Source: Saprospiraceae bacterium (GTDB lineage: Bacteria; Bacteroidota; Bacteroidia; Chitinophagales; Saprospiraceae). From it: a stretch of DNA of 64,000 nt. How positions within the stretch are numbered: the first letter of the stretch is position 1; the number at the start of each line of letters is the position of its first letter. This document shows positions 29,362-45,044 of this stretch, piece after piece. The translations under genes were made by a program, and so were the position numbers. Where the stretch lies: positions 1-64,000 of the forward strand of contig JAHDGU010000008.1 of assembly GCA_020627535.1 (NCBI GenBank), written 5' to 3'. The notes beneath the pieces are model-generated. The model worked only from the letters and a program-made list of their open reading frames with translations, was not told the origin of the DNA and made no database searches.

Positions 29362-29452
29362 GGGGATCTTCTCCTACATTTTTTTCGTTGGTGTCTGGGA
29401 ACTTCATGGACTCATTTGTGTTTCTCTCGTAGAGTAAGCACGATATTGTTAT

Positions 29453-30016
29453 ATGACACTCTTGATCGATAATGAGGATTCCTTTACGTACAATATTGTA
29501 GAGTTGGCGAGGAAGATTGTGGCTGATGAGCTTGATGTGAGATCGGCCACTGTGCTTAGGGTAGACGAGCTAGATGGCTATGACAAGATTGTGATCTCAC
29601 CAGGCCCTGGAAAGCCTTCCGACTTTGCGATTCTCACAGATGTGATCCAGCATTGTGAGCAAAATCACAAACCATTACTAGGAATTTGTCTTGGTCATCA
29701 AGCAATCTGTGAGTACTTTGGCGCTGCACTCTATCGTATGGAGCAAGTAGTACATGGCCAGCAAAAGCAAGTGAGGACAATAGCATCCAAGCTCTTTAGT
29801 GATACTTCAGCTCACATTTCGGTAGGCTTGTATCACTCATGGGCGATTCAAGAAGACAGCTTGCCAAGTTGCTTGAGGTCCACAGCGATATCCACCGACG
29901 ATATTCTCATGGCTGTCGAACATCAAGAGCGACCAATTTACGGCATACAGTTTCATCCAGAGTCATTCTTGACACTAAATGGTGCCGATATTCTATCCAA
30001 GTTTTTATTGAATTAG
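29453..30016 (+). CDS. pabA: aminodeoxychorismate synthase glutamine amidotransferase component
   Basis: A 187-residue class I glutamine amidotransferase that supplies ammonia for 4-amino-4-deoxychorismate in folate synthesis. Motifs: LLIDNEDSFTYNIVEL, ISPGPGKPSD, the nucleophile in LGICLGHQAICEYFG (Cys about 78), VGLYHSW, and the catalytic His-Glu in GIQFHPESFL. Its downstream partner is the PabB-type synthase, six bases away, so PabA is preferred over TrpG; a separate TrpG lies beside trpE in this window. Confidence 0.88.
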   Translation: MTLLIDNEDSFTYNIVELARKIVADELDVRSATVLRVDELDGYDKIVISPGPGKPSDFAILTDVIQHCEQNHKPLLGICLGHQAICEYFGAALYRMEQVVHGQQKQVRTIASKLFSDTSAHISVGLYHSWAIQEDSLPSCLRSTAISTDDILMAVEHQERPIYGIQFHPESFLTLNGADILSKFLLN

Positions 30017-30022
30017 ATTCAG

Positions 30023-30979
30023 GTGGACTACAGATCATTTGAGCGAAAGCTCACATCACTCGCTCTGGATAGCAGGCCATTTATCTTTCTCATAGATTTT
30101 GAAAAAAAGAAGCCTATGGTGTGGACGCTTGAGGAGGCAGAGGCTGAGGGCATATGTATGGAAATTTCATATGCACCGGGTGAGGTTAAGGCAGGAATAG
30201 ATATAGCCTATCATGGCATGGATAGGGAACAGTTTGAGCTACGCGTGAATCGAGCCATAGAGCATCTGGAACAAGGTGATACTTATCTCATCAATCTGAC
30301 ATTTCCGAGCGTAGTGGAAACTCAGTATAGTCTAGAGGATATTTTTCGACATGCTTCCGCCAAATACAAATTTTACAGACCAGATGATTTTGTGATTTTT
30401 TCTCCAGAAACTTTCGTCAAAATTTCTGAGAATCGTATCCACACTTATCCTATGAAGGGGACTATCGATGCATCTGTCGAGAATGCGTCCGATATATTGA
30501 TGAATGATGAAAAAGAAATCTGGGAGCACAATACGATTGTCGATTTGCTGCGCAATGATCTATCGATGGTGTCCCAAAATGTGTGTGTCGAGAAGTATAG
30601 ATATCAAGATCGTATCCTCAGTAGAGGAGTCGAATTGCTACAGACGAGTTCAGAGATCGTTGGAGAATTGACGGACAACTGGAGATCTCAACTTGCTGAG
30701 CTCCTTTGGTCCTTGACACCAGCTGGCTCCATCAGCGGTGCGCCCAAAAAAAGAACATTAGAAATTATTGGGTCACTAGAGCTTGACGAGCGTGGCTACT
30801 ATACAGGGATCTGCGGTCGCTATGATGGTGAGACTCTGGACAGTGCGGTATGTATCAGATATATCGAGCAGAGAGATGGGAAATTGTGGTACAGGAGTGG
30901 CGGAGGAATCACAGCCAATAGTCAAGTAGATAGAGAATATGACGAAATGCTGAGCAAAATTTATGTTCCCACTTTTTGA
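30023..30979 (+). CDS. pabB: aminodeoxychorismate synthase component I
   Basis: A 318-residue chorismate-utilising enzyme that adds ammonia to chorismate to give 4-amino-4-deoxychorismate. It carries the chorismate-binding motifs: FELRVNRAIEHLEQGDTYLINLTFPS, YPMKGTID, EHNTIVDLLRNDLSMVS, LTPAGSISGAPKKRTLEII, and YYTGICGRYDGETLDSAVCIRYIE with FRSGGGI-like WYRSGGGIT. The PIKGT-type motif reads PMKGT, consistent with PabB. It is shorter than E. coli PabB because the N-terminal domain is reduced, as is common in Bacteroidota. GTG start; the 3' end overlaps pabC by 17 bases. Confidence 0.88.
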   Translation: MDYRSFERKLTSLALDSRPFIFLIDFEKKKPMVWTLEEAEAEGICMEISYAPGEVKAGIDIAYHGMDREQFELRVNRAIEHLEQGDTYLINLTFPSVVETQYSLEDIFRHASAKYKFYRPDDFVIFSPETFVKISENRIHTYPMKGTIDASVENASDILMNDEKEIWEHNTIVDLLRNDLSMVSQNVCVEKYRYQDRILSRGVELLQTSSEIVGELTDNWRSQLAELLWSLTPAGSISGAPKKRTLEIIGSLELDERGYYTGICGRYDGETLDSAVCIRYIEQRDGKLWYRSGGGITANSQVDREYDEMLSKIYVPTF

Positions 30980-31565
30980 GACCGTAAGACTAGTGGATGG
31001 AGTCGTTCAAAATGCCCAGCTGCATCAAGATAGATTTGCCAAGGCTTATTTTCAGCACTTCCATAGAACTGCAGCTTTTGATATATTCGATCAACTTAGC
31101 ATTCCTTCTGAAGCGCATGATGGTACATGGAAGATGAAGATTCAGTATGATCTCAACGAAAGGCGATTTGAATTTTCTCCATATCAACGGAGTGTTATTT
31201 CAAGCCTTAGGCTCGTAGAGGCTCCCTTGAGTATAGACTACTCATTGAAGTATGCAGATCGATCGTTTTTGGATGAATTACTGACACGCAAGAAGGATGC
31301 CGATGATATACTGATTGTAAGGAATGGAAGACTTACGGACAGCAGCTACACCAATGTGTTACTCTCGCAGCAGGGCATATGGTATACACCTGTGGATCCG
31401 CTACTGCGAGGGACGATGCGTCAGTCTCTGTTAGATCGTGGACTGGTGTCTAGTCGTGAGATTTTTGTAGATGATCTAGAAATGTATGACGAGTATATCC
31501 TTGTCAATGCCATGAGGCCGATGGATGAACGAGACGCTCATAGCGTGACCAATATCTGCTGGTAA
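30963..31565 (+). CDS. pabC: aminodeoxychorismate lyase (class IV aminotransferase fold)
   Basis: A 200-residue PLP-dependent protein that in this context should convert aminodeoxychorismate to 4-aminobenzoate. It starts FPLFETVRLVDG, has the KM-K-I-QYDLNERRFEF region with a candidate Lys for PLP (the YSLKYADRSFLDELL segment), and the class IV signature ILIVRNGRLTDSSYTNVLL with later GTMRQSLLDRG. It is shorter than E. coli PabC (about 270), typical of the compact Bacteroidota type. Overlaps pabB by 17 bases, completing a pabA-pabB-pabC operon. Confidence 0.82.
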   Translation: MFPLFETVRLVDGVVQNAQLHQDRFAKAYFQHFHRTAAFDIFDQLSIPSEAHDGTWKMKIQYDLNERRFEFSPYQRSVISSLRLVEAPLSIDYSLKYADRSFLDELLTRKKDADDILIVRNGRLTDSSYTNVLLSQQGIWYTPVDPLLRGTMRQSLLDRGLVSSREIFVDDLEMYDEYILVNAMRPMDERDAHSVTNICW

Positions 31566-31569
31566 GCGC

Positions 31570-32580
31570 CTAGATTGTAAGCGCCAATTCACGAGTTTTA
31601 TGCATAGCGTCGATAAGTCTGCCACTCTGCTGATAGTTGAGTGTTTGTTGCCCATCAGAAAATGCTTTTTCAGGTTCATGGTGCACTTCCATGATGACGC
31701 CATCAGCTCCAGCCATCACACCTGCAAGTGCGAGTCGAGAGACATGATCTCTCAGCCCAATACCATGCGAAGGATCAACGACGACAGGAAGGTGTGATTT
31801 TTCTTTGAGCAGGATGACCGCATTGATATCCATTGTATTTCGATAAGCTTTTTCGTACGTTCGGATACCTCGTTCGCAGAGTATGATTTTCTCATTTCCA
31901 TTGGAGAAAATATACTCTGCCGCTTGTAGTAGCTCGTCAATGGTCCCGCTCATTCCTCTTTTCAGTAGGATGGGCTTATCGATTTCTCCCAGTGCATCTA
32001 GCAGATTGAAATTTTGGCTATTGCGCGCACCGACCTGAAAGATGTCGACATAGGGCAACATGCTCTCAATCTGTGAGACTTGCATGACTTCAGTGACGAT
32101 CTTGATACCAGCTTCTTGTGTCTGTTCGTGCCACATTTTAAGCCCATCGATGCCCAGTCCACGAAAGCTGTAGGGGCTACTTCTCGGCTTGTACACACCG
32201 CCACGCATGATCTTGATATTATTCTCCAAAAGATGCTGGATGGTGCTCCTGACTTGAGCTTCACCCTCGATACTACATGGTCCAGCCATGATTTGGAAAT
32301 CACCATTTCCTACGGCTAGGTCTTCTGATATCGGTACAGCGGTTTTGCCTACTTTCCACTTTGAGCTGACAAGTTTATAGGCGTCACTCACTCTGTGGAT
32401 ATCTTTGATTCCCGCCAAGCTTCCTATACGCCGAATGTCAAAATCTTTCTTTCCAATACAGACAAGATACTTTCCGTACTGGGTTGAGATTTCATTGTGC
32501 TTGTAACCTACGCCGTCGATTTTGTCGAGGATTTCTTGATAGCTATGTTCTTCGATATTTTCTTGCAGCTGAATGATCAT
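31570..32580 (-). CDS. aroF: 3-deoxy-7-phosphoheptulonate (DAHP) synthase
   Basis: A 336-residue enzyme of the type I-beta class that condenses PEP and erythrose 4-phosphate in the first step of the shikimate pathway. An N-terminal ferredoxin-like regulatory domain (about 1-75; IIQLQENIEEHSYQEILDKIDGVGYKHNEIS) precedes the barrel, with MAGPCSIEGEAQV, RGGVYKPRSSPYSFRGLG, VGARNSQNF, KRGMSGTIDELL and VDPSHGIGLRDHV. It is the last gene of the trp operon (four-base overlap with trpA), so supply of precursor is tied to tryptophan demand. Confidence 0.93.
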   Translation of the reverse strand: MIIQLQENIEEHSYQEILDKIDGVGYKHNEISTQYGKYLVCIGKKDFDIRRIGSLAGIKDIHRVSDAYKLVSSKWKVGKTAVPISEDLAVGNGDFQIMAGPCSIEGEAQVRSTIQHLLENNIKIMRGGVYKPRSSPYSFRGLGIDGLKMWHEQTQEAGIKIVTEVMQVSQIESMLPYVDIFQVGARNSQNFNLLDALGEIDKPILLKRGMSGTIDELLQAAEYIFSNGNEKIILCERGIRTYEKAYRNTMDINAVILLKEKSHLPVVVDPSHGIGLRDHVSRLALAGVMAGADGVIMEVHHEPEKAFSDGQQTLNYQQSGRLIDAMHKTRELALTI

Positions 32581-33350
32581 GGTCTGATGCTTGTGATAAA
32601 TTCTTCAATATTTGAGGATAGTTCTTTATCGCCTGTCAATGCTCTGATAAATGCTGATCCAATGATGGCTCCATTGGCATACTCACAGGCATTTTCATAG
32701 CTTGCCTGGTCGTGGATCCCAAAGCCGATTAGTTTATTTGTATCAGGCAGGAGCGATTGGATCTTTTCAAAATATGAGATCTGATCTTCTCCCAGATTTC
32801 CACTTTTTCCGGTGATGGATGAACTGCTGACTACGTATAGAAATCCTGTACTCAATTGTGCGGCAGTTTGACATCGAGCATCCGATGTTTCTGGGGTCAC
32901 CAAAAATGACATACTGAGATCACGTTCTTCAAACAGTGCTTGAAATTGATTGCTGTAGATTTCCATCGGTAGGTCAGGCAAGATGAGACCATCTACGCCG
33001 ACCTTGACGCAGCTGTCGAGAAATCTTTCTAGTCCATATTGGACGAGTTGATTGAAATATCCCATAAGTACGACAGGTACCTGAGTGTTTTCTCGCAAAG
33101 TGCTCAATTGCTGAAATAGCACATCCAGGTTCATACCATTCTCCAATGCGATCTGACTGCTATCTTGGATGGTCTTGCCATCAGCCATCGGATCCGAATA
33201 TGGCATCCCAAGTTCGATGATATCAACGCCAAGGCGATCTAGCTCTGTGATGATAGACATGGTGTCCTCTAGCTTGGGATAGCCAGCAGGAGCATAGATA
33301 TTGAGGATATCTCCTTGCTTCGTATCAAATAATTTTTGAAGTCGATTCAT
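32577..33350 (-). CDS. trpA: tryptophan synthase alpha chain
   Basis: A 257-residue TIM barrel that cleaves indole-3-glycerol phosphate and channels indole to TrpB. Motifs: YAPAGYPKLEDTMSII, DIIELGMPYSDPMADGKTIQDSSQIALENGM with the catalytic Glu (ELG) and Asp (PYSDP), VVLMGYFN, DGLILPDLPME, FLVTPETSD, FLYVVSSSSITGKSG and IGFGIHD. Start and stop each overlap a neighbour by four bases. Confidence 0.95.
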   Translation of the reverse strand: MNRLQKLFDTKQGDILNIYAPAGYPKLEDTMSIITELDRLGVDIIELGMPYSDPMADGKTIQDSSQIALENGMNLDVLFQQLSTLRENTQVPVVLMGYFNQLVQYGLERFLDSCVKVGVDGLILPDLPMEIYSNQFQALFEERDLSMSFLVTPETSDARCQTAAQLSTGFLYVVSSSSITGKSGNLGEDQISYFEKIQSLLPDTNKLIGFGIHDQASYENACEYANGAIIGSAFIRALTGDKELSSNIEEFITSIRP

Positions 33351-34531
33351 GATGCGAGATCTGCTTTGATATAGGTCGGAAGATCTTTATCTCCTCTCCC
33401 GGATAAATTGATGACGACGACATCCTCAGGTAGAAATTTTTTACGCTCGAGTACAGCAAATGCATGAGCGGTTTCGAGAGCAGGAATGATACCCTCGGTC
33501 CTCGCCAGTGAAAATGCCGCATCCATTGCTTGCTGATCAGTGATTGCTTCTACAGTGGCCCTGGCACTATGGATAAGATTAGCCAGCATGGGTCCAATAC
33601 CGGGATAGTCAAGACCGGCTGATATGGAGTACGGCTCGATGATTTGTCCATATTTATCCTGCATGAGCAGTGTATTGGCACCATGAATGATGCCAGGTTT
33701 GCCGAGAATACTCGTAGCCGCGCTGTGACCAGTCTCTACACCTAGACCGGCTGCCTCTGCAAAGACAAATTTGACATCCGACTGGTCGAGGTAGTGATAG
33801 ATAGCACCGGCAGCGTTACTGCCTCCACCTACGCATGCGATGATGTAATCGGGATTTTCTCGACCGATTTTTTCCTTCAACTGAATTCTTATTTCTTCGC
33901 TGATCACTGACTGAAATCGTGCGACCATGTCGGGGTATGGATGCGGTCCCACAACCGAGCCAATGATATAGTGTGTCTCCACTGGATTGTCAATCCAATC
34001 TCTGATAGCCTCATTGGTTGCGTCCTTGAGCGTTTTGCTTCCACTCTCCGCGGGTCTTACTTCAGCACCGAGCATCCGCATTCGACTCACGTTGGCAGCT
34101 TGACGCACTATGTCTACACTGCCCATGTATACGATGCACTCCATGTCCATGAGCGCACAGACGGTCGCCGTAGCTACTCCATGCTGACCTGCTCCTGTCT
34201 CAGCGATGATCCGTGTCTTGCCGAGTTCACGTGCGAGTAGGATTTGACCTATGGTATTGTTGATTTTATGGGCTCCGGTGTGATTGAGATCTTCACGTTT
34301 GAGATAGATTTGGCATTCATATTTTTCTGAGAGCCTTTCGGCAAAATACAATGGACTTGGACGACCTACATAGTCCTTCAGTAGCGCGTGAAACTTTTGC
34401 TTGAAGCTAGCTTTTGATGTAATCTCTAGATAGGAGTCTTTGAGTCGAGCAATATTCGAGTAAAGCATCTCTGGGATATAAGCACCACCAAATTGACCGT
34501 AGAATCCTTTTTGATTAATGTTATAAGTCAT
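33347..34531 (-). CDS. trpB: tryptophan synthase beta chain
   Basis: A 394-residue PLP enzyme that joins indole and serine. Motifs: FYGQFGGAYIPEML, RPSPLYFAERL, KREDLNHTGAHKINNTIGQILLA with the PLP lysine in HKINN, ETGAGQHGVATAT, GSKTLKDATNEAIRDWI, CVGGGSNAAGAIYHY and NLSGRGDKDLPTY. Length fits the family. The 5' end overlaps trpF by 11 bases and the 3' end overlaps trpA by four. Confidence 0.96.
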   Translation of the reverse strand: MTYNINQKGFYGQFGGAYIPEMLYSNIARLKDSYLEITSKASFKQKFHALLKDYVGRPSPLYFAERLSEKYECQIYLKREDLNHTGAHKINNTIGQILLARELGKTRIIAETGAGQHGVATATVCALMDMECIVYMGSVDIVRQAANVSRMRMLGAEVRPAESGSKTLKDATNEAIRDWIDNPVETHYIIGSVVGPHPYPDMVARFQSVISEEIRIQLKEKIGRENPDYIIACVGGGSNAAGAIYHYLDQSDVKFVFAEAAGLGVETGHSAATSILGKPGIIHGANTLLMQDKYGQIIEPYSISAGLDYPGIGPMLANLIHSARATVEAITDQQAMDAAFSLARTEGIIPALETAHAFAVLERKKFLPEDVVVINLSGRGDKDLPTYIKADLAS

Positions 34532-35129
34532 AGTCTCTGATTTCAGTGATAAAGGGATGTAGTGTGCCGGGATCTTTCTGACAAGGAGTGGTTTCGAAGC
34601 GACTATTAAGATCTATGCCTGCTAAAAAGGGATGAGGAATTTGAGCGATTTTGCTGGCGTCATCTGGTCCAATACCACCTGCCAAGAGAAAAGGAATATC
34701 TCCATCATACGCATGCAAGATCTTCCAGTCAAACTTAGCACCGCTGCCACCTAGTTCCTTCGTTTTGTAATCGAATAAATAGAAATCTATTCCATGGTAG
34801 TCAAGTCCAACAACGTCCTCCTCTGCAGCCACGGGAATGACCTTGATGATTCCTCCTAGAGAAGAGAGCTTGTTGATATAGGATTGGTCTTCTTGTCCAT
34901 GCAATTGGATAAAATCAAGCTCAAATTCTGCTGCAAGATTTTTCACGGTGCTGATCTCCTCATTGACGAATATACCAACGTGCTCTTTTTTCTTATCGCC
35001 GTGAAAGGAAGTCTTACCCACATACCTTTTGGAATCTGGGTAAAAGTTGAATCCTAGCCAATCCAAATCGAGTGAACACAATAGCTCATATTGGGACGCA
35101 CTAGTCACGCCACATACTTTAATGATCAT
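34521..35129 (-). CDS. trpF: phosphoribosylanthranilate isomerase
   Basis: A 202-residue TIM barrel catalysing the Amadori rearrangement of phosphoribosylanthranilate. Motifs: IKVCGVTSASQYELL with the catalytic Cys, LGFNFYPDSKRYVG, KKEHVGIFVNE, DFIQLHGQEDQSYI, FLFDYKTKELGGSGAKFDW with the catalytic Asp, FLLAGGIGPDDA and AGIDLNSRFE. It is slightly atypical because the usual GVVFA/LGF segment and ending are short, but all active-site elements are there. Confidence 0.93.
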   Translation of the reverse strand: MIIKVCGVTSASQYELLCSLDLDWLGFNFYPDSKRYVGKTSFHGDKKKEHVGIFVNEEISTVKNLAAEFELDFIQLHGQEDQSYINKLSSLGGIIKVIPVAAEEDVVGLDYHGIDFYLFDYKTKELGGSGAKFDWKILHAYDGDIPFLLAGGIGPDDASKIAQIPHPFLAGIDLNSRFETTPCQKDPGTLHPFITEIRDYDL

Positions 35130-35905
35130 AACTGGTCAATAAATTTTTTGCAAGCCAATGCTGGATTAGCGTCTTTCATAAAATATTCACCAATCAAAAA
35201 TCCTTGATAGCCAGCTGAGCGAAGAGTCCTAATGGCATCCACACTACTGATTCCACTCTCGCTGATTTTGACTGCGGAACTTGGTAAATGTTGGAAGCAT
35301 TCAAGGCTATTTTCTATCGATACCTCAAAGCTGCGGAGATCACGATTGTTAACTCCGATGAGATCAGGCGTGAAGCTTAGCTTTTCGAGTTCACGCGCTT
35401 CGTGTATTTCTACAAGTACCTCTAGATTGAGTGAATGAGCGAGCTGAAAATATTCTGTAAGTTGCTCGGGTGTCAATATGGCCGCGATCAGTAGGATAGC
35501 ATCTGCACCTATGCTCTTGGCTTCATGAATTTGATACGGATCTACTACAAAGTCCTTTCGTAGGATGGGGCAGTAGTTATACCTTCTAGCAGTCCTGAGA
35601 TCCTCATTGCTTCCACCAAAGAAGGTCTCATCTGTAAGCACGGATAGAGCACTTGCTCCCCCTTGCATGTAGCCGATGGATACAGGCTCGACTTGCGCAT
35701 GGAGGTTGATTTGATCCTTGGATGGAGATTTTCTCTTAAATTCTGCAATGATGCCTTTTTTGTCTGGCCTCAAGAGGTATTCACTCATCGACACTGTCGG
35801 TGCAGCATAGTGTATACTGTCCTGGATCAAGGCGAGGGGGTACTTTGCTGATCGCGCCTCAGTCTCTTTGATTTTATGTGCCTTTATTTTTTCAAGAATA
35901 TTCAT
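35126..35905 (-). CDS. trpC: indole-3-glycerol-phosphate synthase
   Basis: A 259-residue TIM barrel that closes the indole ring. Motifs: IIAEFKRKSPSKDQINL with the catalytic lysines, GGASALSVLTDETFFGGS, CPILRKDFVVDPYQIHEAKSIGADAILLIAAIL, LVEIHEARELEKL, IGVNNRDLRSFEVSIENS, KISESGISSVDAI and FLIGEYFMK. Overlaps trpD and trpF by four bases each. Confidence 0.95.
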   Translation of the reverse strand: MNILEKIKAHKIKETEARSAKYPLALIQDSIHYAAPTVSMSEYLLRPDKKGIIAEFKRKSPSKDQINLHAQVEPVSIGYMQGGASALSVLTDETFFGGSNEDLRTARRYNYCPILRKDFVVDPYQIHEAKSIGADAILLIAAILTPEQLTEYFQLAHSLNLEVLVEIHEARELEKLSFTPDLIGVNNRDLRSFEVSIENSLECFQHLPSSAVKISESGISSVDAIRTLRSAGYQGFLIGEYFMKDANPALACKKFIDQL

Positions 35906-36897
35906 GAGTTGATCAGTTTTTTAAATACGTCAAAGGCTGCACCGCTTTCGATGCTTTCTATTGCCATTTGATGGCAGTCTTCTAGAGATATTTCTGGATG
36001 ATATAGCTGTAGAGCGAGAGCTGCATTAGAGCACACGACGTTTTTTCGCGAAAGCGTGTCCTCATTTTTGAGTACCCCAACAAATATTTCGGCCGCATCA
36101 GCGACTGTCTCTCCACCATAGATATCCGTCTCTTGTAAACTTTCTACACCAAAGTCAAAAGCTGATAGTAGTCTTTCCTTACCATTTTGAGAGATCTTGG
36201 CATCGCTGGTCAGAGAGATCTCGTCATAGCCGCCAAGGCAGTGCACGATACACTCTTTGACATCGCGGGTCGCTAAGAGATACTGATAGAGACGCGCTAC
36301 CTTGAGATTAAATACACCCACGAGCTGATAGCCTGGTTGAGCAGGGTTGACCAGTGGGCCTAGCATGTTGAAGAAAGTTTTGACGCCAAGATCACGCCTT
36401 ATCGGACCTACAGACTTGAGTGCTGGATGGAATAGAGGAGCATGCAAGAATGTGATGTTGCAGGTATTGAGCTGTTTCTTGAGTCGATCCTCTTCATTGG
36501 AAAATTTATGGCCGAGATGCTCAAGCACATTACTACTTCCACAGACGCTGCTCACGCCGTAGTTGCCATGTTTGATGACTTTCTTACCGGCGCCAGCTAA
36601 AACAAATGCTGAGAGTGTGGAAATATTGAATGTATTTTTTCCATCTCCTCCTGTACCACATACATCAATGGCTTCAGCAGCCTCGAGGGAGATGGGGACA
36701 CAAAGCTCTAGTAAAGCCTCCTGAAATCCGCTGAGCTCCTCTACCGAGATACTTCGCATAAGATAGACACTGATAAAGGCAGCAATCTGAGATGCATTAT
36801 ATCGCTCTTCTGAGATGCCGATGAGGATAGATCGAGCTTCCGATCGATCGAGTCTCTCATGAGCATGTAGCTTGCTGAGTATTTCTTTCATCTTCAT
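35902..36897 (-). CDS. trpD: anthranilate phosphoribosyltransferase
   Basis: A 331-residue enzyme that transfers phosphoribosyl from PRPP to anthranilate. Motifs: DVCGTGGDGKNTFNISTLSAFVLAGAGKKVIKHGNYGVSSVCGSSNVLEHLG, the IGVRTFFN-like LGVKTFFNMLGPLVNPA, and VGVFNLKVARLYQYLL. The PRPP-binding GTGGDG and the anthranilate-site residues are intact. ATG at 36897 overlaps the trpG stop as ATGA, which supports that start over a second ATG two codons later. Confidence 0.95.
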   Translation of the reverse strand: MKMKEILSKLHAHERLDRSEARSILIGISEERYNASQIAAFISVYLMRSISVEELSGFQEALLELCVPISLEAAEAIDVCGTGGDGKNTFNISTLSAFVLAGAGKKVIKHGNYGVSSVCGSSNVLEHLGHKFSNEEDRLKKQLNTCNITFLHAPLFHPALKSVGPIRRDLGVKTFFNMLGPLVNPAQPGYQLVGVFNLKVARLYQYLLATRDVKECIVHCLGGYDEISLTSDAKISQNGKERLLSAFDFGVESLQETDIYGGETVADAAEIFVGVLKNEDTLSRKNVVCSNAALALQLYHPEISLEDCHQMAIESIESGAAFDVFKKLINS

Positions 36898-37460
36898 AAC
36901 GCAAGGAAATTTTGGAGGATCATTTTGCCGGAAGGCGTCATCACAGACTCAGGGTGATACTGCACACCATAGATCGGCAGTGACTGATGCTCGATGGACA
37001 TAATCTCTCCCGATTGATCTCTAGAAGTAATGATGATATTTTCATCAATCGTGCTCTCATCGATGACCCAACTATGATATCTTCCTGCGTCAAAATGATT
37101 CTTGATACCTTGATAAATCTTGGACTTTCCCGTCAATATCATTTGATCTTGCACACCGTGATAGACACGATTGAGATTTTTCAAGCTTGCACCAGATGCT
37201 TCTGCTATAGCCTGTAATCCAAGGCATACTCCGAAGATTTTTTTCGACTCCCAGCAGTGCTTTAGGACTGGCATGAGATTGCCCGACTCGGACGGAAGAC
37301 CAGGGCCAGGTGATAAAATGAGATGCGTATAAATCTCAGTCATTTCTGGCGATATTTCACCACTGCGATAGACATCTGGTCTCTTTCCATAAATCTCTTC
37401 GATCATATGAACCAGATTGTAACTAAAAGAATCGTAGTTGTCAATGAATAATATTTTCAT
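36894..37460 (-). CDS. trpG: anthranilate synthase glutamine amidotransferase component
   Basis: A 188-residue class I glutamine amidotransferase giving ammonia to TrpE. Motifs: LFIDNYDSFSYNLVHMIEE, LSPGPGLPSESGN, FGVCLGLQAIAEASGASL with the nucleophile Cys, AGRYHSWVI and YGVQYHPESVMTPSG with the catalytic His-Glu. It lies directly after trpE (four-base overlap), which separates it from the PabA paralogue at 29.5 kb. Confidence 0.93.
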   Translation of the reverse strand: MKILFIDNYDSFSYNLVHMIEEIYGKRPDVYRSGEISPEMTEIYTHLILSPGPGLPSESGNLMPVLKHCWESKKIFGVCLGLQAIAEASGASLKNLNRVYHGVQDQMILTGKSKIYQGIKNHFDAGRYHSWVIDESTIDENIIITSRDQSGEIMSIEHQSLPIYGVQYHPESVMTPSGKMILQNFLAL

Positions 37461-38806
37461 ATTCCCTCAGCGCTTTGTATAGCAGTCTTGAGGGCTGCTA
37501 GCTTATTTTCTACTTCTTGCAATTCACTTTCTGGTATCGAATCGATAACAATCCCAGCTCCTGCTTGATAGTGCAATGTTCCCGCTTGACTGAGTATAGA
37601 TCTGATGATGATGGCATGGTTCAGATCACCATTGAGATGAATCATGCCGATGGCACCACCATAAAAATCACGGTGATGCTTTTCATACTTTTCGATGAGT
37701 TCTAGCGCGCGATACTTAGGGGCGCCACTCAGGGTGCCTGCTGGAAACGTGCCACCAAATACATCGAAAACTCTGCTGTCTTTCCGGAGCTTGGCTGTGA
37801 CCTTGGATACGAGATGGATGACATGGCTGAAATACTGAACCTCCTTGTATTTGTCTACGGTGACTTGATTTCCATGCTTGCTCAGATCATTCCTTGCCAG
37901 GTCTACCAGCATGACGTGTTCTGAGTTTTCTTTTGGATCCGCAAGGAGTTTGTCCGCTCTCTGACGATCAACATCAGGATCGCCATCTCGACGAAATGTT
38001 CCGGCTATAGGATGTATCTCCGCCTTGCCATCTGAGATCACAAGATGTGCTTCAGGGCTGCTGCCAAATATCTTATAGGATCCATAATCGAAGTAGAAAA
38101 GATAAGGGCTGGGGTTGACCGATCTCAGAGCGCGATAAACATTAAATTCATCGCCAGAAAAACCTTGAGTGAATCTGCGAGAAAGTACCAGTTGAAATAC
38201 ATCTCCACGCTGACAATGCTCCTTGGCTTTCTTCACAAAATCAAGGAAGTCTTGATCTGTGGTGGGACTTGATTCTGCTCCATCAAGGGTAAAGCGAAAC
38301 TGACCAATGTCTTGACGTCTGATCAGTCGGAGCACTTGATCCAGCTGAGAAGTCTCTCCTTCAGGCGTGTATTCGCGGAGTACTAGGAGATTCCTGTAGT
38401 GATCGATCTCAATCACAAAGCGATAGAAGTCATACCGTAGAGCAGGCATATCCAGACCTTCTTTGCGATCATTAAGCACATATCCTTCAAAGCATGCCGC
38501 CGTCTCAAAGCCTGTGAAGCCATAGACTGCGTCACTGGCCGACTTACCTCCAACTACTTCGATTTGATCGACGAATGCTGCAATCCTTTCGCTGAGCTCT
38601 GAAGAGGAGCTTGGCATAGCACTTTTGGGCATCACAAGTGATTCCTGTACGCCAAAGCAGAGAAATGACGAGCTATTCTCCCGCAGACTGTAGTCCGAGT
38701 TCTCGAGGAGTAGCACTTGCGCATACTGCTCTCTGAGCCGGAGATAGAGCCCTACTGGTGTCACGAGATCAGCGAGCTGCTGTGTTTCAAGTAATGTGTA
38801 CTTCAT
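37457..38806 (-). CDS. trpE: anthranilate synthase component I
   Basis: A 449-residue enzyme that makes anthranilate from chorismate. The feedback-site region LLLENSDYS is present near residue 30. The chorismate-binding core has AKEHCQRGDVFQLVLSRRF, PSPYLFYFDYG, GSSPEAHLVI, PIAGTFRR, EHVMLVDLARNDLSKHG, FPAGTLSGAPKYRALELI and YQAGAGIV. ATG 38806 is chosen because the longer frame would start inside the attenuator hairpin. A three-codon ATG-GAA-TAA frame precedes the start. Transcription is probably set by the upstream Trp leader and attenuator. Confidence 0.95.
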   Translation of the reverse strand: MKYTLLETQQLADLVTPVGLYLRLREQYAQVLLLENSDYSLRENSSSFLCFGVQESLVMPKSAMPSSSSELSERIAAFVDQIEVVGGKSASDAVYGFTGFETAACFEGYVLNDRKEGLDMPALRYDFYRFVIEIDHYRNLLVLREYTPEGETSQLDQVLRLIRRQDIGQFRFTLDGAESSPTTDQDFLDFVKKAKEHCQRGDVFQLVLSRRFTQGFSGDEFNVYRALRSVNPSPYLFYFDYGSYKIFGSSPEAHLVISDGKAEIHPIAGTFRRDGDPDVDRQRADKLLADPKENSEHVMLVDLARNDLSKHGNQVTVDKYKEVQYFSHVIHLVSKVTAKLRKDSRVFDVFGGTFPAGTLSGAPKYRALELIEKYEKHHRDFYGGAIGMIHLNGDLNHAIIIRSILSQAGTLHYQAGAGIVIDSIPESELQEVENKLAALKTAIQSAEGI

Positions 38807-38814
38807 TTTATTCC

Positions 38815-38846
38815 ATAAAAAAAGGCTTGCCGAATCCGACAAGCCT
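38815..38846 (-). terminator. trp attenuator: terminator hairpin before trpE
   Basis: On the leftward transcript the arms 38846-38837 and 38832-38823 form a 10-bp stem (AGGCTTG...CAAGCCT, one G-U pair) with a GATT loop, directly followed by seven U residues and then the trpE start region. It lies between the leader peptide and trpE, as expected for a transcription attenuator. The 5' arm can instead pair with the end of the leader-peptide region (38883-38873 with 38848-38840). Confidence 0.93.
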
Positions 38847-38872
38847 GATGTTTATACTTTGATACAATACAC

Positions 38873-38944
38873 TCAGTGGCTCGAGATCCGACGATCGAGT
38901 TTAGCTCTGTGCCACCACCAAGATGTATGAATGTTTATTTTCAT
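38873..38944 (-). CDS. trpL: trp operon leader peptide with three consecutive Trp codons
   Basis: A 23-codon frame starts with ATG at 38944-38942, reads MKINIHTSWWWHRAK and ends with TGA at 38875-38873. Codons 9-11 are TGG TGG TGG (38920-38912). Downstream are a competing hairpin (CUC-GAUC...GAUC-GAG, 38899-38880), a 9-bp antiterminator pairing that includes the stop codon (38883-38873 with 38848-38840, two-base bulge), and the terminator stem before trpE. A ribosome stalled at the Trp codons would cover the start of the first hairpin, free the antiterminator arm and let transcription reach trpE. It is too short to appear in ordinary gene calls. Confidence 0.92.
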   Translation of the reverse strand: MKINIHTSWWWHRAKLDRRISSH

Positions 38945-38952
38945 TGCAAGGA

Positions 38953-38983
38953 CAAAGAAAGACATTCCTTTGGAAAATGTCAA
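38953..38983 (-). promoter_or_regulatory. candidate promoter of the trp operon
   Basis: On the minus strand TTG (38983-38981) is followed after 20 bases by TTTCTTTG (38960-38953), close to the Bacteroidota pattern TTG-N19-21-TAnnTTTG with one mismatch. It sits in the 46-base gap between tspO and the leader peptide. Start of transcription would fall only a few bases before the leader ATG. Confidence 0.5.
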
Positions 38984-38990
38984 GAGTTAT

Positions 38991-39482
38991 TTAGTTCAAC
39001 TGCCAGATAGAGTAGTTCAAGATGCTCGCAAAGCCGACCCAAAGTAGGTAAGGCAGCATCAGTATGCCAGCGAGCTTATTCTGTCGCCAGAAGCAGAGCA
39101 TCGTCATGAGGATCAGGATCCAAAGTGTGATGATTACTCCCAGTGCTAGAGACAGATTTTGAGCTCCGAAGAAGATAGGCGTCCAAGCCAGATTGAGCAA
39201 AAACTGGATTACAAACATCACCATGGACCTCTTAGCGACAAGTCCACCTTCGTCTTTGCGCTCCCAGATCAAAGCAAAAGCAAAGCCCATCATGAGGTAA
39301 AGCAATGTCCACATGGGGCCGAAGATCCAATTGGGTGGGTTGAAGCTGGGCTTATTGAGCTCCGCATACCATCCAGATATACTTCCTGCAGTGCTTAAGC
39401 CGCTTGCAGTGCCTAGTGCTAAGCATAGTGCACAGGAGATGAGGGCTTTCGCCCAAAAGGGCATCTTTGAGATCGCTGACAT
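38991..39482 (-). CDS. tspO: TspO/MBR-family tryptophan-rich membrane protein
   Basis: A 163-residue inner-membrane protein with five transmembrane helices. Family motifs: WYAELNKPSFNPPNWIFGPMWTLLYLMMGFA and the later FLLNLAWTPIFFGAQNLSLA. TspO proteins bind porphyrins and related ligands and act in tetrapyrrole or stress responses. The trp leader begins 46 bases downstream on the same strand, so tspO and trp could share a transcript. Two starts are possible, ATG 39482 or ATG 39464; the first leaves only 12 bases to the divergent HAD gene. Confidence 0.92.
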   Translation of the reverse strand: MSAISKMPFWAKALISCALCLALGTASGLSTAGSISGWYAELNKPSFNPPNWIFGPMWTLLYLMMGFAFALIWERKDEGGLVAKRSMVMFVIQFLLNLAWTPIFFGAQNLSLALGVIITLWILILMTMLCFWRQNKLAGILMLPYLLWVGFASILNYSIWQLN

Positions 39483-39494
39483 TCTGATACTTTT

Positions 39495-40211
39495 ATGACT
39501 CCTATGATGTCAAAACTACCACAATCAGTAGATACCATCGCATTTGACGCGGATGATACTCTCTGGGTGAATGAGGTCTTTTTTGCGGAAGCAGAAAAAG
39601 AATTTATAGCACTGATGAGTCCATACATGGATGAGAAGAAAGCGCATGATCTGCTATTCCAGCAAGAGATGAAGAATCTCAGCGATCTTGGATTTGGGAT
39701 CAAGGCATTCACCATATCTATGATAGAGACAGCTATGACCATCGTTGGAGATCATCTATCTCGAGATCTCCTCCAGAAGATCATTGCGATTGGGAAGGAC
39801 ATGTTGCACAAGCCGGTGGAGTTGATGCCGGATATAGTAGAGGTGCTTCAAGCGCTCAAGAATCAATATGATTTGATCGTATTGACCAAAGGAGATTTAC
39901 TTGATCAAGAGCGGAAATTGGAAAAATCTGGTCTGGTGGAATATTTTGATCATTTTCAAGTGATGTCTGATAAGAAGGTGGAAAACTATCGTGGTGTATT
40001 CAGCAATTTGGGTCTAGTGCCATCGCAGATCTTGATGATCGGAAACTCAATGAAGTCTGATGTCCTGCCTCTTTTGGAACTCGGAGCCCACGCGATTCAC
40101 ATACCTTTTCATACGGTATGGAAATATGAGCATGTGGAAGAAGATTGCGAGCATCAAAATTTTCAAAGAATAAAATCTGCAAAGGAATTACTTGATATCT
40201 GTATGGCATGA
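39495..40211 (+). CDS. HAD-superfamily hydrolase
   Basis: A 238-residue cytoplasmic phosphatase-like protein with the HAD motifs: FDADDTLW (Asp18 nucleophile, Asp20), the motif II/III Thr-Lys in LIVLTKGDLLDQERKLEKSGLVEYF, and IGNSMKSDVLPLLELGAHAIHIPF (motif IV acidic residues). The helical cap lies between residues 25 and 100. Substrate unknown; sequence type fits small phosphatases such as phosphoglycolate or nucleotidase-like members. Divergent from tspO with only 12 bases between start codons. Confidence 0.85.
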   Translation: MTPMMSKLPQSVDTIAFDADDTLWVNEVFFAEAEKEFIALMSPYMDEKKAHDLLFQQEMKNLSDLGFGIKAFTISMIETAMTIVGDHLSRDLLQKIIAIGKDMLHKPVELMPDIVEVLQALKNQYDLIVLTKGDLLDQERKLEKSGLVEYFDHFQVMSDKKVENYRGVFSNLGLVPSQILMIGNSMKSDVLPLLELGAHAIHIPFHTVWKYEHVEEDCEHQNFQRIKSAKELLDICMA

Positions 40212-40276
40212 ACGAGGAGAATCGCGAAGTGCTTGAGCAGTTGCTACAGATACCTACCAATATATGACAGAAGAGT

Positions 40277-42514
40277 ATGGCTAGATTATTTTTTATTTTA
40301 TTCATTTGTTTCTTTTTCTCTTGTTCTGAGCCGTCTGCAGGAGCAGTTGAATCTCAAGATGTATCGAGAGCAGAGACGCAGCAGATGATCGACGAGCTTA
40401 AAGCCATATCACAAGACCGATCTGATCCAGAGATGTGGCATCTCAATGCAGACAAGGCAAGGGCTTATGAAAAGGCCTCGGCAGAGACACAGGATGTAGG
40501 CCAACAGATCAGTCTCCGCTACAAGGCAGCCTATGAGTGGCTCAATGCGGGTGACTACAATCGTGCGATCCAGCTGCTAGGCACGATCGATAAATTTGTG
40601 ACGGAGCGCAATGTCAATTTGCCCCCGCAGGTTGCTATTTCTCTCAAGCAAGCTCTGGGTATCGCCTATCTCCGCAAAGGAGAAATAGAAAATTGTATAA
40701 AGCACCACAATGAATACTCCTGTATCCTGCCGATCGTCAAGGATGGTAAACATATAGAGCAAGACGGAGCGGCTTCCGCCAAAAAGATTTTTACAGAGCT
40801 GTCTGAGGTCTATCCAAATGATCCGCAGATACACTGGCTGAAAATGATCTCCGAGATGGCTCTTGGTGAATATGCTGGAACTGGAGATGCTCCCGCTGCG
40901 GTCTCCCTACCAGCGATGGCATCGGACATCGATTATCCTCGATTTAGGGATAAGGCAATGGGTCTAGGACTTGGCGTCAATGATATTGCTGGTGGAGTGG
41001 TGATTGATGACTTTAATGGAGATCACTACCTAGATATTATATGTAGTAGTTATGGTCTTGATGATCAATTGAGATATTTTGAAAATGATCGCTCAGGAGG
41101 ATTTGTAGATCGTACGATGGCCGCAGGCCTTGATGGCATGCTGAGTGGTCTCAATCTAGTCCAGGCCGACTATGACAATGATGGGCACCTCGATGTCCTG
41201 GTGCTCAGAGGAGCGTGGCTTGGGAAATACGGCAACCATCCCAATTCACTATTGAAAAATCTGGGAGATGGCAGATTCGTGGATGTAACACGAAGTGCCG
41301 GTCTGTATAGCAAATATCCCAGTCAGACGGCATCGTGGGCAGACTTTGACGCTGATGGCTATATCGACTTATTTATTGGTAATGAGCACTCCAGTGCGAT
41401 TGATGCTCCTTGTCAGTTGTATCACAATCAAGGCGACGGCACATTTATAGAATTGGCTTCCGCCAAAGGAATATCAGTAAATGATTTTATCAAGGCATGT
41501 AGCTGGGGCGATGTGAATAATGATGGCTATGCTGATTTGTATCTGAGTAGTGTAGTTGGTGACAACTATTTATTCGTCAATGGAGGTCCCACCAAGGATT
41601 TCAAATTTCAGAATGTGGCAGGGGCGCTTGGTGTGCAGGAGCCCAAATTGAGTTTTCCTTGTTGGTTTTTTGATTTTAATCAAGATGGATGGCAAGATAT
41701 CTTCGTGAGTGGCTTTGATTTTTCTCAGTTTGAATCTGCTGCCGGTCAGGTAGCGAAGGATTTTCTAGGCCTGGAGACTCAAGCCGAGCTGCCGCGACTA
41801 TATATCAATGATGGGAATGGAGGTTTTACTGAGCGAAGTGAGGCAGTCGGGATCGATAAAGTGGTTTACACCATGGGCTGCAATTTTGGTGATATAAATA
41901 ATGATGGATTTCCCGATGCTTATCTCGGAACAGGTACGCCGGATTTCAAGGCTTTGATACCGAATAAGTTCTTTTTGAATGACGGTGGGAAGAAATACTT
42001 GGACATTACAAGCTCAGCGGGTCTTGGCCATCTACAAAAGGGACATGGAATTGCTTTCGGAGATTTGGATCTAGATGGTGATCAAGATATTTATCATGTA
42101 CTTGGTGGATCTTATGACGGCGACAATTTTATGAATGCGCTTTTTGAAAATCCCGGAAATGATGGAAACTGGATCAGGCTAAAGCTCATTGGCAATAAGG
42201 CCAATCGATCAGCGATCGGCGCGCGCTTGAAAATAGTAGCAAGCAATTCATCAGGTCAATCAAAAATCTTCTTCAACCGTGTCAGCTCTGGCGGGAGCTT
42301 CGGTGCCAATACCTTGTGGGTAGAGCAAGGATTGGGTCAGTATTCAATGATTGAAAATATAGAAGTTACATGGCCCGGAGGTGCAAAGTCGAGCTATTCA
42401 AATCTTGAGAGCTCGGCTCACTACATCATAAATCAATCAAAGACGGAAGTTCAAAAACTGAGTTTGAGTGCTATCGAGTTTACTGAATCATCACACCATC
42501 ATCACGGACATTAA
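40277..42514 (+). CDS. FG-GAP/ASPIC-UnbV lipoprotein (CRTAC1-like) with TPR region and His-rich tail
   Basis: A 745-residue surface or periplasmic lipoprotein (leader FICFFFSCSE). Residues about 30-200 are helical, TPR-like. From about 225, FG-GAP/VCBS propeller repeats carry Asp-rich calcium-binding loops (DDFNGDHYLDI, ADYDNDGHLDVL, ADFDADGYIDLF, GDVNNDGYADLY, FDFNQDGWQDIF, GDLDLDGDQDIY). A C-terminal ASPIC/UnbV domain follows (GNKANRSAIGARLKIVASN...VEVTWPGG-like region IENIEVTWPGGAKSSY). The last residues are SSHHHHGH, possibly metal-binding. Such proteins bind ligands or partners at the cell surface; exact role unknown. It converges on the propeller gene at 42.5 kb. Confidence 0.85.
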   Translation: MARLFFILFICFFFSCSEPSAGAVESQDVSRAETQQMIDELKAISQDRSDPEMWHLNADKARAYEKASAETQDVGQQISLRYKAAYEWLNAGDYNRAIQLLGTIDKFVTERNVNLPPQVAISLKQALGIAYLRKGEIENCIKHHNEYSCILPIVKDGKHIEQDGAASAKKIFTELSEVYPNDPQIHWLKMISEMALGEYAGTGDAPAAVSLPAMASDIDYPRFRDKAMGLGLGVNDIAGGVVIDDFNGDHYLDIICSSYGLDDQLRYFENDRSGGFVDRTMAAGLDGMLSGLNLVQADYDNDGHLDVLVLRGAWLGKYGNHPNSLLKNLGDGRFVDVTRSAGLYSKYPSQTASWADFDADGYIDLFIGNEHSSAIDAPCQLYHNQGDGTFIELASAKGISVNDFIKACSWGDVNNDGYADLYLSSVVGDNYLFVNGGPTKDFKFQNVAGALGVQEPKLSFPCWFFDFNQDGWQDIFVSGFDFSQFESAAGQVAKDFLGLETQAELPRLYINDGNGGFTERSEAVGIDKVVYTMGCNFGDINNDGFPDAYLGTGTPDFKALIPNKFFLNDGGKKYLDITSSAGLGHLQKGHGIAFGDLDLDGDQDIYHVLGGSYDGDNFMNALFENPGNDGNWIRLKLIGNKANRSAIGARLKIVASNSSGQSKIFFNRVSSGGSFGANTLWVEQGLGQYSMIENIEVTWPGGAKSSYSNLESSAHYIINQSKTEVQKLSLSAIEFTESSHHHHGH

Positions 42515-42539
42515 TGGGATTGCTCTGGGTGCGATGACT

Positions 42540-45044
42540 TTACTGCAAGACAATTTTTTTGACAGCCTGTTTACCATTTTCATCAGAGATATTGAGCCAA
42601 TACCATCCTTTGGGCAAGTGGGCGAGATCTAGCAATTGGTTTTGTGATTTCAGTTGAGCGATGACGCTGCCTTTCTGATCCACCACCTGTACAGACGAAG
42701 ACTCTATTCCGCTGATGTTGATGATCCCAGTGCTTGGATTGGGATAAACTGCAATAGAGCTTTTATCCTCATTTTCTGTGGATGTGGCAGGTGAGATAAT
42801 TTCTTCGATGTCGTAGCTCTGCAAGGACCTCGCAAAGGTGGCTGCCACTAATTCTTGATTTGCAACATTAAACTCCAAATCAAATACTTTAATATTGGGC
42901 ATGTTGGTACCAAGTCTTTGCCAATTGATTCCTCCGTTGGTAGTGCCGTAGACACCATCATTGGTCCCTACAAAGATGACTTCATCTTTGGTATCAGGTA
43001 TGATATAAATGTCATTGATTGTGGCATCGGGAAGATCTCCAGAGATAGGCTCCCAGCTAAAGCCGTAGTTGTCTGTTCGGAATAAGATTGGGGAAAAATC
43101 ATTGTCATTGAATCCAGAGAATGAAGCAAAGGCAACTCCTGCAATATCAGGTGAGTATTTGACATCAGTCACATACTTTTTGGGTAGTTGATCGGAGACA
43201 TCTAACCAGCTACCATCAGGTCCTTGGATATGGACATAACCATTGTTGGTTCCAGCGATCAAGACTCCAAACTCTATCGGACTTTCGTGTAGACAGGTAA
43301 TTGTGGCCTGGCTGGTGATCACGGTTTCCCCGTATGTCAGATCATCAGAAATAGCTGTCCAGAATGGAAAGTATGAGTCTGTACTGATGTGGATCTTATT
43401 CGTACCGGTATACATGATATTGGGATCATGCGTACTCATCATATATTGCATATCCCAGTTTCGAGGTCCCTCCAGGCCTTCTGTTGCAGAGGATGGATAG
43501 CCATAGTAAAATTGGACAATATTACCTCTTTGTGTTTCAGCAAAAAATAAGGTAGGTTCGTCCGGATGAAATACCATTTGAAAGCCATCTCCTCCCCAGA
43601 TTCGTGGCCAGTCATTGATATTTTCGGCATTACCACCTGTTGATCCATTGTCTTGTGCACCACCATAGTATTCGTCTGGGGTGTGAGGATTATATGCCGT
43701 ACGATAAAATTGAGTAGTCGGAATATTTTCAATATCACTCCACGTGTACTCATCAATATTTTTCCTGTAGACACCACCGTCTGTGGCGAGGTACATCTCA
43801 CCATCGGACATGATTTGCAAGTCATGCTTATCGGCATGTACTTCATAGGTCCACCAGGGTGGAACCGCTTCGGTCCAAGTCAGTCCTGCATCTCTGGTCT
43901 CGTACATATCTATCCCGAGTACGAATATGTGATCTGGATCATTGGGATTTACATGTACCTTCCCAAAATACCAGCCAAATCCACCGAGTATATTGGGTGG
44001 TAAAGTATCAGTCGGAATCTCAGAAAAACTCGCCCCATAGTCTTCACTTCGATAGATGCCTTCGAGGTTTCTAGTGGTATCTACGACGACTACGTAGACA
44101 TGATTGGGCTGTGTCCTGCAGACATCCATACCATGGCGACCGAGAATACCATCTGGCAGACCATCATCAATTTTGGTCCAGCTATCTCCTCCATCTACTG
44201 AGCGGTAAAAATTTGATCCTTCTCCTTCTACGATGCTGACGGTGGTGCTTCTCACTCGATCCCAAGTAGTCGCGTAGACGATATTGGCTTGTTCAGGATT
44301 GACGATGACATCGCTGAAACCTGTGCTATCTGATACAAATAGTACTTGCTCCCAGCTTGACCCTCCGTCGTTGGATCTGTAAATGCCTCGAGTGTTGTTT
44401 TTTTCAAAAGGGAGACCCATACTTGCTACGAAGAGCTGCTGACTATTCTCAGGATTCACCTCGATTTTGGAAATGATTCTCTGCTCTTCTAGCCCTAGTG
44501 ATTCCCAACTCGCACCTCTGTCATTAGAGCGGAAGATTCCATTACCAATATTGGGAAATCCCGTCAGATTTGGGTCACCTGTCCCGAGATATATGACATC
44601 GTCATCATTGGGATCTATTCCTACATAGCCTATGGATTGAAAAGCATTGTCATCGAAGATTGATTGCCAGTTTTCTCCACCGTCTTCTGTCTTGTAGAGA
44701 CCGCCACCACTGAATCCTGCATAGATTTCATCCTGATTGTTAGGATTGATGGCTAGTGTGTTGACTCGTGCACCGATATTGCCTGGGCCCTGAGTTTGCC
44801 ATTCTTTGTCAAATCCGGGCGAACGAAATTGAGTTTCGAGACGCAGCTGATTCAGCTTTTCTACTCGTTTGGCGTATGCTTCTACATCGATTGTCTCATT
44901 GGGATAGTTGTACTCGATATATCGATCGTAATAGGGATATGTCTTATCCAATAATTTATCTTCCTGAATTTCCGTACTATTTTCGGTTTGTTGGCAAGCA
45001 CTGAAAAAAAAGAACCCTGAGAGTAGTAGGAGTAGAATTCGCAT
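42540..45044 (-). CDS. BNR/sortilin-like propeller lipoprotein with T9SS sorting domain
   Basis: An 834-residue exported protein. The leader ends FFFFSACQQ. Most of the chain is made of BNR/sialidase-type repeats (S-x-D-x-G-x-x-W: KTEDGGENWQSI, RSNDRGASWESL, RSNDGGSSWEQV, RSVDGGDSWTKI, ETRDAGLTWTEA, RTDNYGFSWEPI, GTTNGGINWQRL), as in VPS10/sortilin and glycosidase-like propellers. No catalytic residues can be assigned. The C-terminus (VYPNPSTGIINISG...LPKGWYWLNISDENGKQAVKKIVL) is a type IX secretion sorting domain. ATG 45044 is preferred to the TTG two codons earlier. The co-occurrence of a lipobox-like Cys and a T9SS domain is unusual. Confidence 0.85.
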   Translation of the reverse strand: MRILLLLLSGFFFFSACQQTENSTEIQEDKLLDKTYPYYDRYIEYNYPNETIDVEAYAKRVEKLNQLRLETQFRSPGFDKEWQTQGPGNIGARVNTLAINPNNQDEIYAGFSGGGLYKTEDGGENWQSIFDDNAFQSIGYVGIDPNDDDVIYLGTGDPNLTGFPNIGNGIFRSNDRGASWESLGLEEQRIISKIEVNPENSQQLFVASMGLPFEKNNTRGIYRSNDGGSSWEQVLFVSDSTGFSDVIVNPEQANIVYATTWDRVRSTTVSIVEGEGSNFYRSVDGGDSWTKIDDGLPDGILGRHGMDVCRTQPNHVYVVVVDTTRNLEGIYRSEDYGASFSEIPTDTLPPNILGGFGWYFGKVHVNPNDPDHIFVLGIDMYETRDAGLTWTEAVPPWWTYEVHADKHDLQIMSDGEMYLATDGGVYRKNIDEYTWSDIENIPTTQFYRTAYNPHTPDEYYGGAQDNGSTGGNAENINDWPRIWGGDGFQMVFHPDEPTLFFAETQRGNIVQFYYGYPSSATEGLEGPRNWDMQYMMSTHDPNIMYTGTNKIHISTDSYFPFWTAISDDLTYGETVITSQATITCLHESPIEFGVLIAGTNNGYVHIQGPDGSWLDVSDQLPKKYVTDVKYSPDIAGVAFASFSGFNDNDFSPILFRTDNYGFSWEPISGDLPDATINDIYIIPDTKDEVIFVGTNDGVYGTTNGGINWQRLGTNMPNIKVFDLEFNVANQELVAATFARSLQSYDIEEIISPATSTENEDKSSIAVYPNPSTGIINISGIESSSVQVVDQKGSVIAQLKSQNQLLDLAHLPKGWYWLNISDENGKQAVKKIVLQ

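Follow-up and report, generated by a model that had tools for sequence, protein, structure and literature searches.

The window, a stretch of 64,000 nucleotides from a Saprospiraceae genome, carries on its minus strand eight consecutive genes running from trpE to a DAHP synthase, every one of which overlaps its successor (Table 1). The TrpE and TrpF matches lie below every curated cut-off listed, and the other six genes exceed at least one. As the trp operon genes are identified and overlap, it is plausible that trpEGDCFBA-aroF forms one transcript. The spacer between trpE and a TspO-like gene (38991-39482; profile match below the curated cut-off) holds a short minus-strand frame whose product begins MKINIHTSWWW...; an in-frame ATG at 38965 would extend it to 30 codons. 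The 179-nt leader RNA folds at -50.1 versus -36.1 kcal/mol (z -3.4), with none of 200 dinucleotide shuffles as good. The original prediction had read this spacer as a complete Trp attenuator, and its start codon, TGG run, stop codon, hairpin, antiterminator strand and terminator were all located where it had placed them. The Trp run was also tried as a genome-wide leader finder and rejected, since 122 matches to TGGTGGTGG against 95 with a reversed control are uninformative.

Table 1. Features of the trp leader and operon; positions are those of the window.
Feature	Position	Strand	Basis
Candidate -7 promoter box TTTCTTTG, one mismatch to TAnnTTTG, 3' end 8 nt before the leader ATG	38953-38960	-	sequence
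Leader peptide frame MKINIHTSWWWHRAKLDRRISSH, 23 codons, ATG 38944 to TGA	38873-38944	-	sequence
Segment 1, containing most Trp codons, pairs with segment 2	38914-38927	-	MFE fold; coordinates by eye
Three consecutive Trp codons TGG TGG TGG (TGGTGGTGG), codons 9-11, presumed stall site	38912-38920	-	sequence
Antiterminator helix A, 5' strand GATCT, with GGATT 38837-38833 (arm top and loop)	38884-38888	-	duplex prediction
Antiterminator helix B, 5' strand CGAGCC, with GGCTTG 38845-38840	38878-38883	-	duplex prediction; tests of region 2 against shuffled sequence
Segment 2 GCCACTGAGTGTA, including the leader stop codon	38868-38880	-	MFE fold
Leader stop codon TGA; can lengthen the antiterminator via TCA 38848-38846	38873-38875	-	sequence; MFE fold of the RNA that a stalled ribosome leaves free
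Intrinsic terminator, 10-bp stem AGGCTTGTCG/CGGCAAGCCT (38846-38837 with 38832-38823), loop GATT, T7 38823-38817	38817-38846	-	sequence, fold
trpE, first structural gene	37457-38806	-	best NCBIfam match trpE, below its curated cut-off
trpG, trpD, trpC, trpF, trpB, trpA, aroF-type DAHP synthase	31570-37460	-	profile matches

Control of the whole operon had been predicted to reach the supply of DAHP. The aroF-type gene does belong to the operon, but a second DAHP synthase-like protein is encoded on contig 10, fused to a chorismate mutase (matches below the curated cut-offs) and adjoined by a frame that we named by eye as tyrA-like, so that Trp would control the supply of DAHP only in part. A KDO8P synthase is found on contig 22, and no Phe-rich frame was detected in the 1500 nt upstream of the single PF00800 gene of the genome. 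Adjoining the end of the trp operon, in convergent orientation, the region 29453-31565 (+) encodes a TrpG/PabA-like amidotransferase, a second TrpE-like frame and a third frame, which we presume could serve para-aminobenzoate synthesis.

The T run of the terminator ends 10 nt upstream of the trpE ATG, and its stem is the longest among 12 terminator-like sites in 28000-44000, a number that is by itself uninformative against a shuffled mean of 10.7. The early hairpin CTCGATCGTCGGATCTCGAG that had been described at 38899-38880 is present; in the minimum free energy fold, however, it only caps a larger hairpin, which pairs 38927-38914 with 38880-38868. This 1:2 duplex reaches -15.9 versus -10.2 in shuffles (p 0.023), and the antiterminator duplex -14.3 versus -10.3 (p 0.072); in another shuffle test the two pairings gave p 0.07 and 0.08. 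Judged on this locus alone, the signal is no more than suggestive. As for the 9-bp antiterminator said to use the stop codon, its distal strand TCAGGCTTG lies at 38848-38840 as predicted, but the pairing can also include the terminator loop: helix A is followed by helix B, by a two-base bulge and by the pairing of TGA with TCA. In one fold, 10 pairs of this duplex involve the flank, 9 the arm and 3 the loop; another fold uses arm and loop. Helix A is weak in the window itself, where the leader end binds its own terminator loop no better (-4.9) than other loops (-5.2).

Conservation provides the decisive evidence. We searched TrpE in 150 genomes of the GTDB family of the window, 147 of which gave a match. 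Omitting three partial ones (G115, G039, G075) from the 118 matches above 300 bits left 115 regions, and dropping L019, with 23 nt upstream, left 114 family regions of at least 150 nt each. From 80 loci of named Bacteroidota, 77 were kept, L137, L148 and L174 being dropped for short upstream sequence. Of the 114 family regions, taken at 350 nt upstream of trpE, 103 contain a frame of 8-60 aa with WW, as do 30 of 2280 shuffled sequences. Within 450 nt, a leader with WW or WxW was found in 109/114 family and 73/77 named regions, and was accompanied by a terminator in 102/114 and 64/77, respectively; seven of the 114 family regions have a leader without a terminator under the rule used. Among the 166 leaders with a terminator, 134 carry WWW, 21 WW, 5 WWWW and 6 WxW. 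Three of the five leaderless family regions (G074, G059, G146) have a leader and terminator further upstream, L105 comprises only 167 nt, and G067 shows no leader. Lack of conservation of the WWW codons and of the terminator and antiterminator pairings had been set beforehand as the observation to count against an attenuator; it was not what we found, as leaders are present at the frequencies just given and the pairings exceed their controls as sets.

Region 2 pairs with the arm and loop of the terminator better than shuffled region 2 does, with means of -12.4 versus -9.4 in the family and -8.9 versus -6.5 in the named loci; at single loci, p was at most 0.05 in 33/102 and 21/64. It also prefers its own arm and loop to those of other loci (p 2e-8 family, 0.007 named), and the 1:2 pairing likewise exceeds swapped pairings (p 6e-11 and 3e-6), p-values here and below taking loci as independent except in the one-per-genus test. 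With the arm alone, the difference from swapped arms is weak (p 0.04 and 0.37) because the terminator arm is highly conserved. For the loop, we used 162 loci, namely 102 from the family and 60 named ones, the latter without L132 and L162, which match family contigs in length, and without L171 and L135, which were dropped for their Saprospiraceae title only. The leader end pairs with its own terminator loop at -7.9 versus -5.2 kcal/mol for swapped loops, and better in 144/162. With a narrower loop and no fixed position, the self value of -6.2 compares with -4.3 for shuffled loops (better in 138/162) and -4.5 for swapped ones (126/162), and with one locus per genus (n 77) with -6.3 versus -4.6 (54/77, p 1e-7). 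When 10 nt before the terminator were allowed, at least three flank pairs formed in 94/162 and at least three loop pairs in 140/162. The best duplexes often use the 5' flank too, so that loop pairing is an addition and not a replacement.

Covariation was analyzed in an alignment, A1, of 46 rows that we picked from 75 leaders. Every row was selected with WWW, hence the invariance of the Trp codons in A1 is no result. In a scan of 40 x 37 column pairs, 80-148 ranks first, 81-147 fifth and 82-146 sixth. These belong to a five-pair helix, 78-82/146-150, whose leader strand corresponds to the GATCT of helix A; 81.3% of its cells are paired and its covariation is 0.457, against at most 0.162 for slid versions. 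For three of five measures (covariation score, percentage paired, doubly changed cells), none of 500 shuffles does as well; the remaining two, pairs with changes on both sides (249/500) and further pair types (47/500), do not rise above shuffles. As these columns were chosen after the scan, this test is not independent of the choice, of which the self/swapped and spacing tests made no use. Column 150 pairs both with leader column 78 and with column 137 of the terminator arm, which indicates that one strand serves two mutually exclusive structures.

The position of the element adds a further regularity. It begins 16-24 nt past the last Trp codon in 137/162 loci (quartiles 18-20), against 78 (69-93) with shuffled and 92 (81-106) with swapped loops in 20 repeats. 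When loci were grouped by the distance from Trp to stop (4-16 codons), the element kept a median start of 17-21 nt in 10 of 12 groups, the two outlying groups, of two loci each, having medians of 23.5 and 28 nt. Relative to the stop codon, its position shifts from +5.5 to -28 across the groups. The distance is thus kept to the Trp codons and not to the stop, which anchors the element to the presumed stall site, immediately beyond where the ribosome is assumed to end.

We then have to consider that the terminator could be constitutive or under the control of a protein, the Trp-rich frame being incidental or serving only translation coupling. Consistent with this, RNAalifold returned the terminator only on the 46-leader alignment, and the finished terminator dominates at equilibrium in all modelled states. 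An incidental frame is nevertheless difficult to reconcile with the excess of WW frames over shuffles, with an antiterminator that keeps its distance to the Trp codons, and with hisG leaders that carry His runs instead. We therefore find this explanation hardly credible.

We favor instead, with a probability of about 0.9, that the trp operon is governed by a transcription attenuator that depends on the ribosome and works like the Bacteroid-trp leaders. A short frame with consecutive codons for the end product is present, as is an intrinsic terminator between the leader and the first gene. An exclusive antiterminator, freed by a stalled ribosome and hidden by a ribosome at the stop codon, was found by computation on the set of relatives. 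RNA polymerase would transcribe the leader while a ribosome translates it. Were charged tRNA-Trp scarce, this ribosome would stall on the three Trp codons and cover segment 1; the region thus freed could capture the nascent 5' arm and loop of the terminator, which would not form, and trpEGDCFBA-aroF would be transcribed. With plentiful Trp, the ribosome would reach the stop codon and mask the antiterminator strand, and the terminator would form. Without translation, the 1:2 hairpin, with the Trp codons inside, would tend towards termination. We infer the response to charged tRNA-Trp, the timing during transcription and the sign that the switch would have in the cell.

An occupancy model, which gives the share of arm and loop held by upstream sequence before the 3' arm is made, is in line with this scheme. 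In the family, the modelled occupancy was 0.29 with no ribosome, 0.63 with a ribosome stalled at the last Trp codon and 0.18 with one at the stop; the named loci gave 0.28, 0.56 and 0.14. The stalled value exceeds the stop value in 101/102 family and 60/60 named loci, and the value without a ribosome in 97 and 56, respectively. The window itself gave 0.59, 0.66 and 0.20, its untranslated state being poorly separated. At equilibrium, the finished terminator still dominates when the ribosome is stalled, with a mean of about 0.9 (0.43-0.79 in the window). Antitermination must thus be kinetic.

On the other hand, the helix with the strongest covariation involves the terminator loop, and this loop is accessible in the finished hairpin. 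One would then wonder whether the loop pairing is a pseudoknot on the completed terminator, stabilizing termination at the stall and thereby reversing the sign of the switch. Such a reversal would turn the operon off in starvation. Furthermore, the best duplexes continue along the 5' arm, which would disrupt the stem, with a mean of 8.6 arm pairs in the family, 6.6 in the named and 8.9 in the His loci and at least four in 100/102, 59/60 and 44/44, respectively, although duplexfold prefers long duplexes and these counts are not independent proof. Helix B exceeds its control in the family (75/89) and in the His leaders (18/26), but not in the named loci (28/58, p 0.29), and the double pairing of column 150, with the leader and with the arm, also speaks against a pseudoknot. 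Altogether, we judge it very unlikely and retain the antiterminator.

Upstream of the leader, the inverted repeat GACATT-N9-AATGTC (38981-38961) overlaps the presumed promoter. The consensus of the -7 box is TAnnTTTG. In 46/101 family loci (3.6 expected) and 43/57 named loci (2.6 expected), an exact TAnnTTTG is no more than 60 nt away from an in-frame leader ATG; the window has the box in a one-mismatch form only. Moreover, 38 of 89 exact boxes of Trp leaders lie at most 8 nt from an in-frame leader ATG, a measure biased to short distances by the use of the nearest of several ATGs. The boxes being so close to the ATGs, part of the Trp leader mRNAs may be nearly leaderless.

The overlap of this inverted repeat with the promoter leaves room for a repressor that would control the operon mainly at initiation, the leader contributing fine-tuning. 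E. coli uses both repressor and attenuation control. However, no match to the Trp_repressor family (PF01371) was found in the genome of the window, in a search in which the E. coli control was positive. This alternative appears unlikely to us, if somewhat less so than the two others, and attenuation remains our preferred explanation.

The comparison with known systems was made with Rfam and E. coli. At the gathering score, Rfam gave no match in the window. In an E-value search with 401 bases, RF01692 (Bacteroid-trp) aligned over the full model (positions 1-131) with 32.1 bits and E 0.067; as the gathering score is 49, the leader is not filed as a member under the Rfam rule. It nevertheless corresponds to the description of RF01692, a Trp-codon hairpin upstream of trp genes in Bacteroidota. 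The resemblance covers the alignment of the whole model, the Trp codons in a hairpin, the terminator 5' arm AGGCUUGUC and the position before trp genes in this phylum. It differs in that the model as printed stops at the terminator 5' arm and includes no antiterminator or terminator hairpin. Among the 150 family genomes, RF01692 was detected in eight at E 0.001, two of them above the cut-off and none being that of the window, with filters that, according to the tool, lose weak matches. The Rfam match of G128 is off the contig of its best TrpE match and stands before another trpE copy; this genome has two trpE-like genes on separate contigs (L033/L126 and L062), with WWW and WW leaders. Our own family model R1, built from 46 leaders, reached 144/150 genomes at E ≤0.01, a count that we set aside because it includes the training rows and because four of seven weaker or off-trpE matches that we read (L350-L353) are apparently plain terminators lacking a Trp leader. 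A search of 20 genomes also led us to reject the idea that the conserved core of the terminator, GGCTTGTC...GRCAAGCC, marks a wider signal: the genome of the window has it once, at trpE, and of five loci that we read in other genomes, three are trpE leaders and two (L212, L215) have no Trp leader.

Bacteroid-trp appears as a Bacteroidetes cis-regulatory candidate in a table of Weinberg et al. 2010 (PMC2864571), and in PMC6414381 it is located upstream of the Flavobacterium psychrophilum trp operon and compared to E. coli. For this species, PMC9723704 reports indications that amino-acid operons are preceded by attenuators of the leader-peptide type, and PMC7366714 mentions short frames resembling leader peptides in B. 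thetaiotaomicron. PMC4833913 cites a comparative survey, Lopatovskaya et al. 2010, which may cover Bacteroidota. The Trp attenuator is an ordinary, described kind of control element. For the loop-anchored rule, we found no description in the literature searched: no title on loop architecture, RF01692, Saprospiraceae attenuators or Bacteroidetes leader peptides pointed to such an antiterminator, which is a weak absence. Most leaders of this family fall under the threshold of the published model, and annotation therefore misses what is likely the main Trp control in a large group of environmental bacteria.

The original prediction had called the arrangement E. coli-type, and the logic fits, with tandem Trp codons in the leader as in trpL, 2:3 and 3:4 pairings and a terminator before trpE. 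The family antiterminator, however, also uses the terminator loop, whereas that of E. coli trp has 6 flank, 5 arm and 0 loop pairs. In a small comparison, the trp, thr, his, ilv and phe leaders of E. coli showed no loop pairing above shuffles (ranks 0.38-0.97). The E. coli his leader has three loop pairs in its best duplex, and leu has no terminator under the rule used. The two systems also differ in that E. coli gives a TrpR match.

An extension to another amino acid came from the genes for His synthesis. A search for HisG in 100 family genomes was positive in 60, and 59 upstream regions were read, of which 50 have a leader with a His run and 44 a terminator in addition. The genome of the window has such a leader on contig 10 (L216), MSLHHHHTAQRSMTPEW at 327187-327240, with a terminator at 327266-327296, before hisG. 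The family His leaders resemble the Trp ones in their codon run, terminator and loop-plus-arm antiterminator, and differ in their His codons and in the operon, that of hisG. Their loop pairing is -6.5, versus -4.4 for shuffled loops (better in 35/44, p 2e-6) and -4.8 for swapped ones (24/44, p 0.01), and the modelled stalled value exceeds the stop value in 43/44. Of 17 strong loop helices, 16 have their start 14-22 nt downstream of the final His codon. In the first 21 His loci, the self versus swapped difference gave p 0.08, and a start at 16-24 nt was seen in 8 against 6.5 shuffled, which is not above the control.

A hypothesis that would unite these data is an attenuator design proper to Bacteroidota, serving at least two amino acids, Trp and His, in which the antiterminator would nucleate on the nascent terminator loop. 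Its element would be set at a fixed distance, about 19 nt past the last Trp codon or, in the strong His cases, 14-22 nt past the last His codon, and would thus lie just outside the stalled ribosome wherever the stop is, so that the ribosome could act as a ruler; capture of the loop before the 3' arm is made could give a kinetic advantage, and some lineages would stack two or three units. We give this proposal an even chance, having set its odds slightly lower on account of the His position test. An antiterminator anchored in the loop and evenly spaced is a precise, testable rule, with which many His leaders also agree. Leader peptides are missed by gene finders, and the rule could aid their annotation.

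A scan of 193 upstream regions, of up to 1200 nt, detected complete Trp attenuators (leader and terminator) in tandem upstream of trpE, two in L111, L145, L180, L195, L204 and L206 and three in L112. In G091, where a leader precedes trpE, a second Trp leader, MIKNTNNWCWWHLFYLPTK, with a terminator lies downstream of trpE (L347; contig 64, 20242-20095, minus strand) and precedes a frame that by eye is TrpD.
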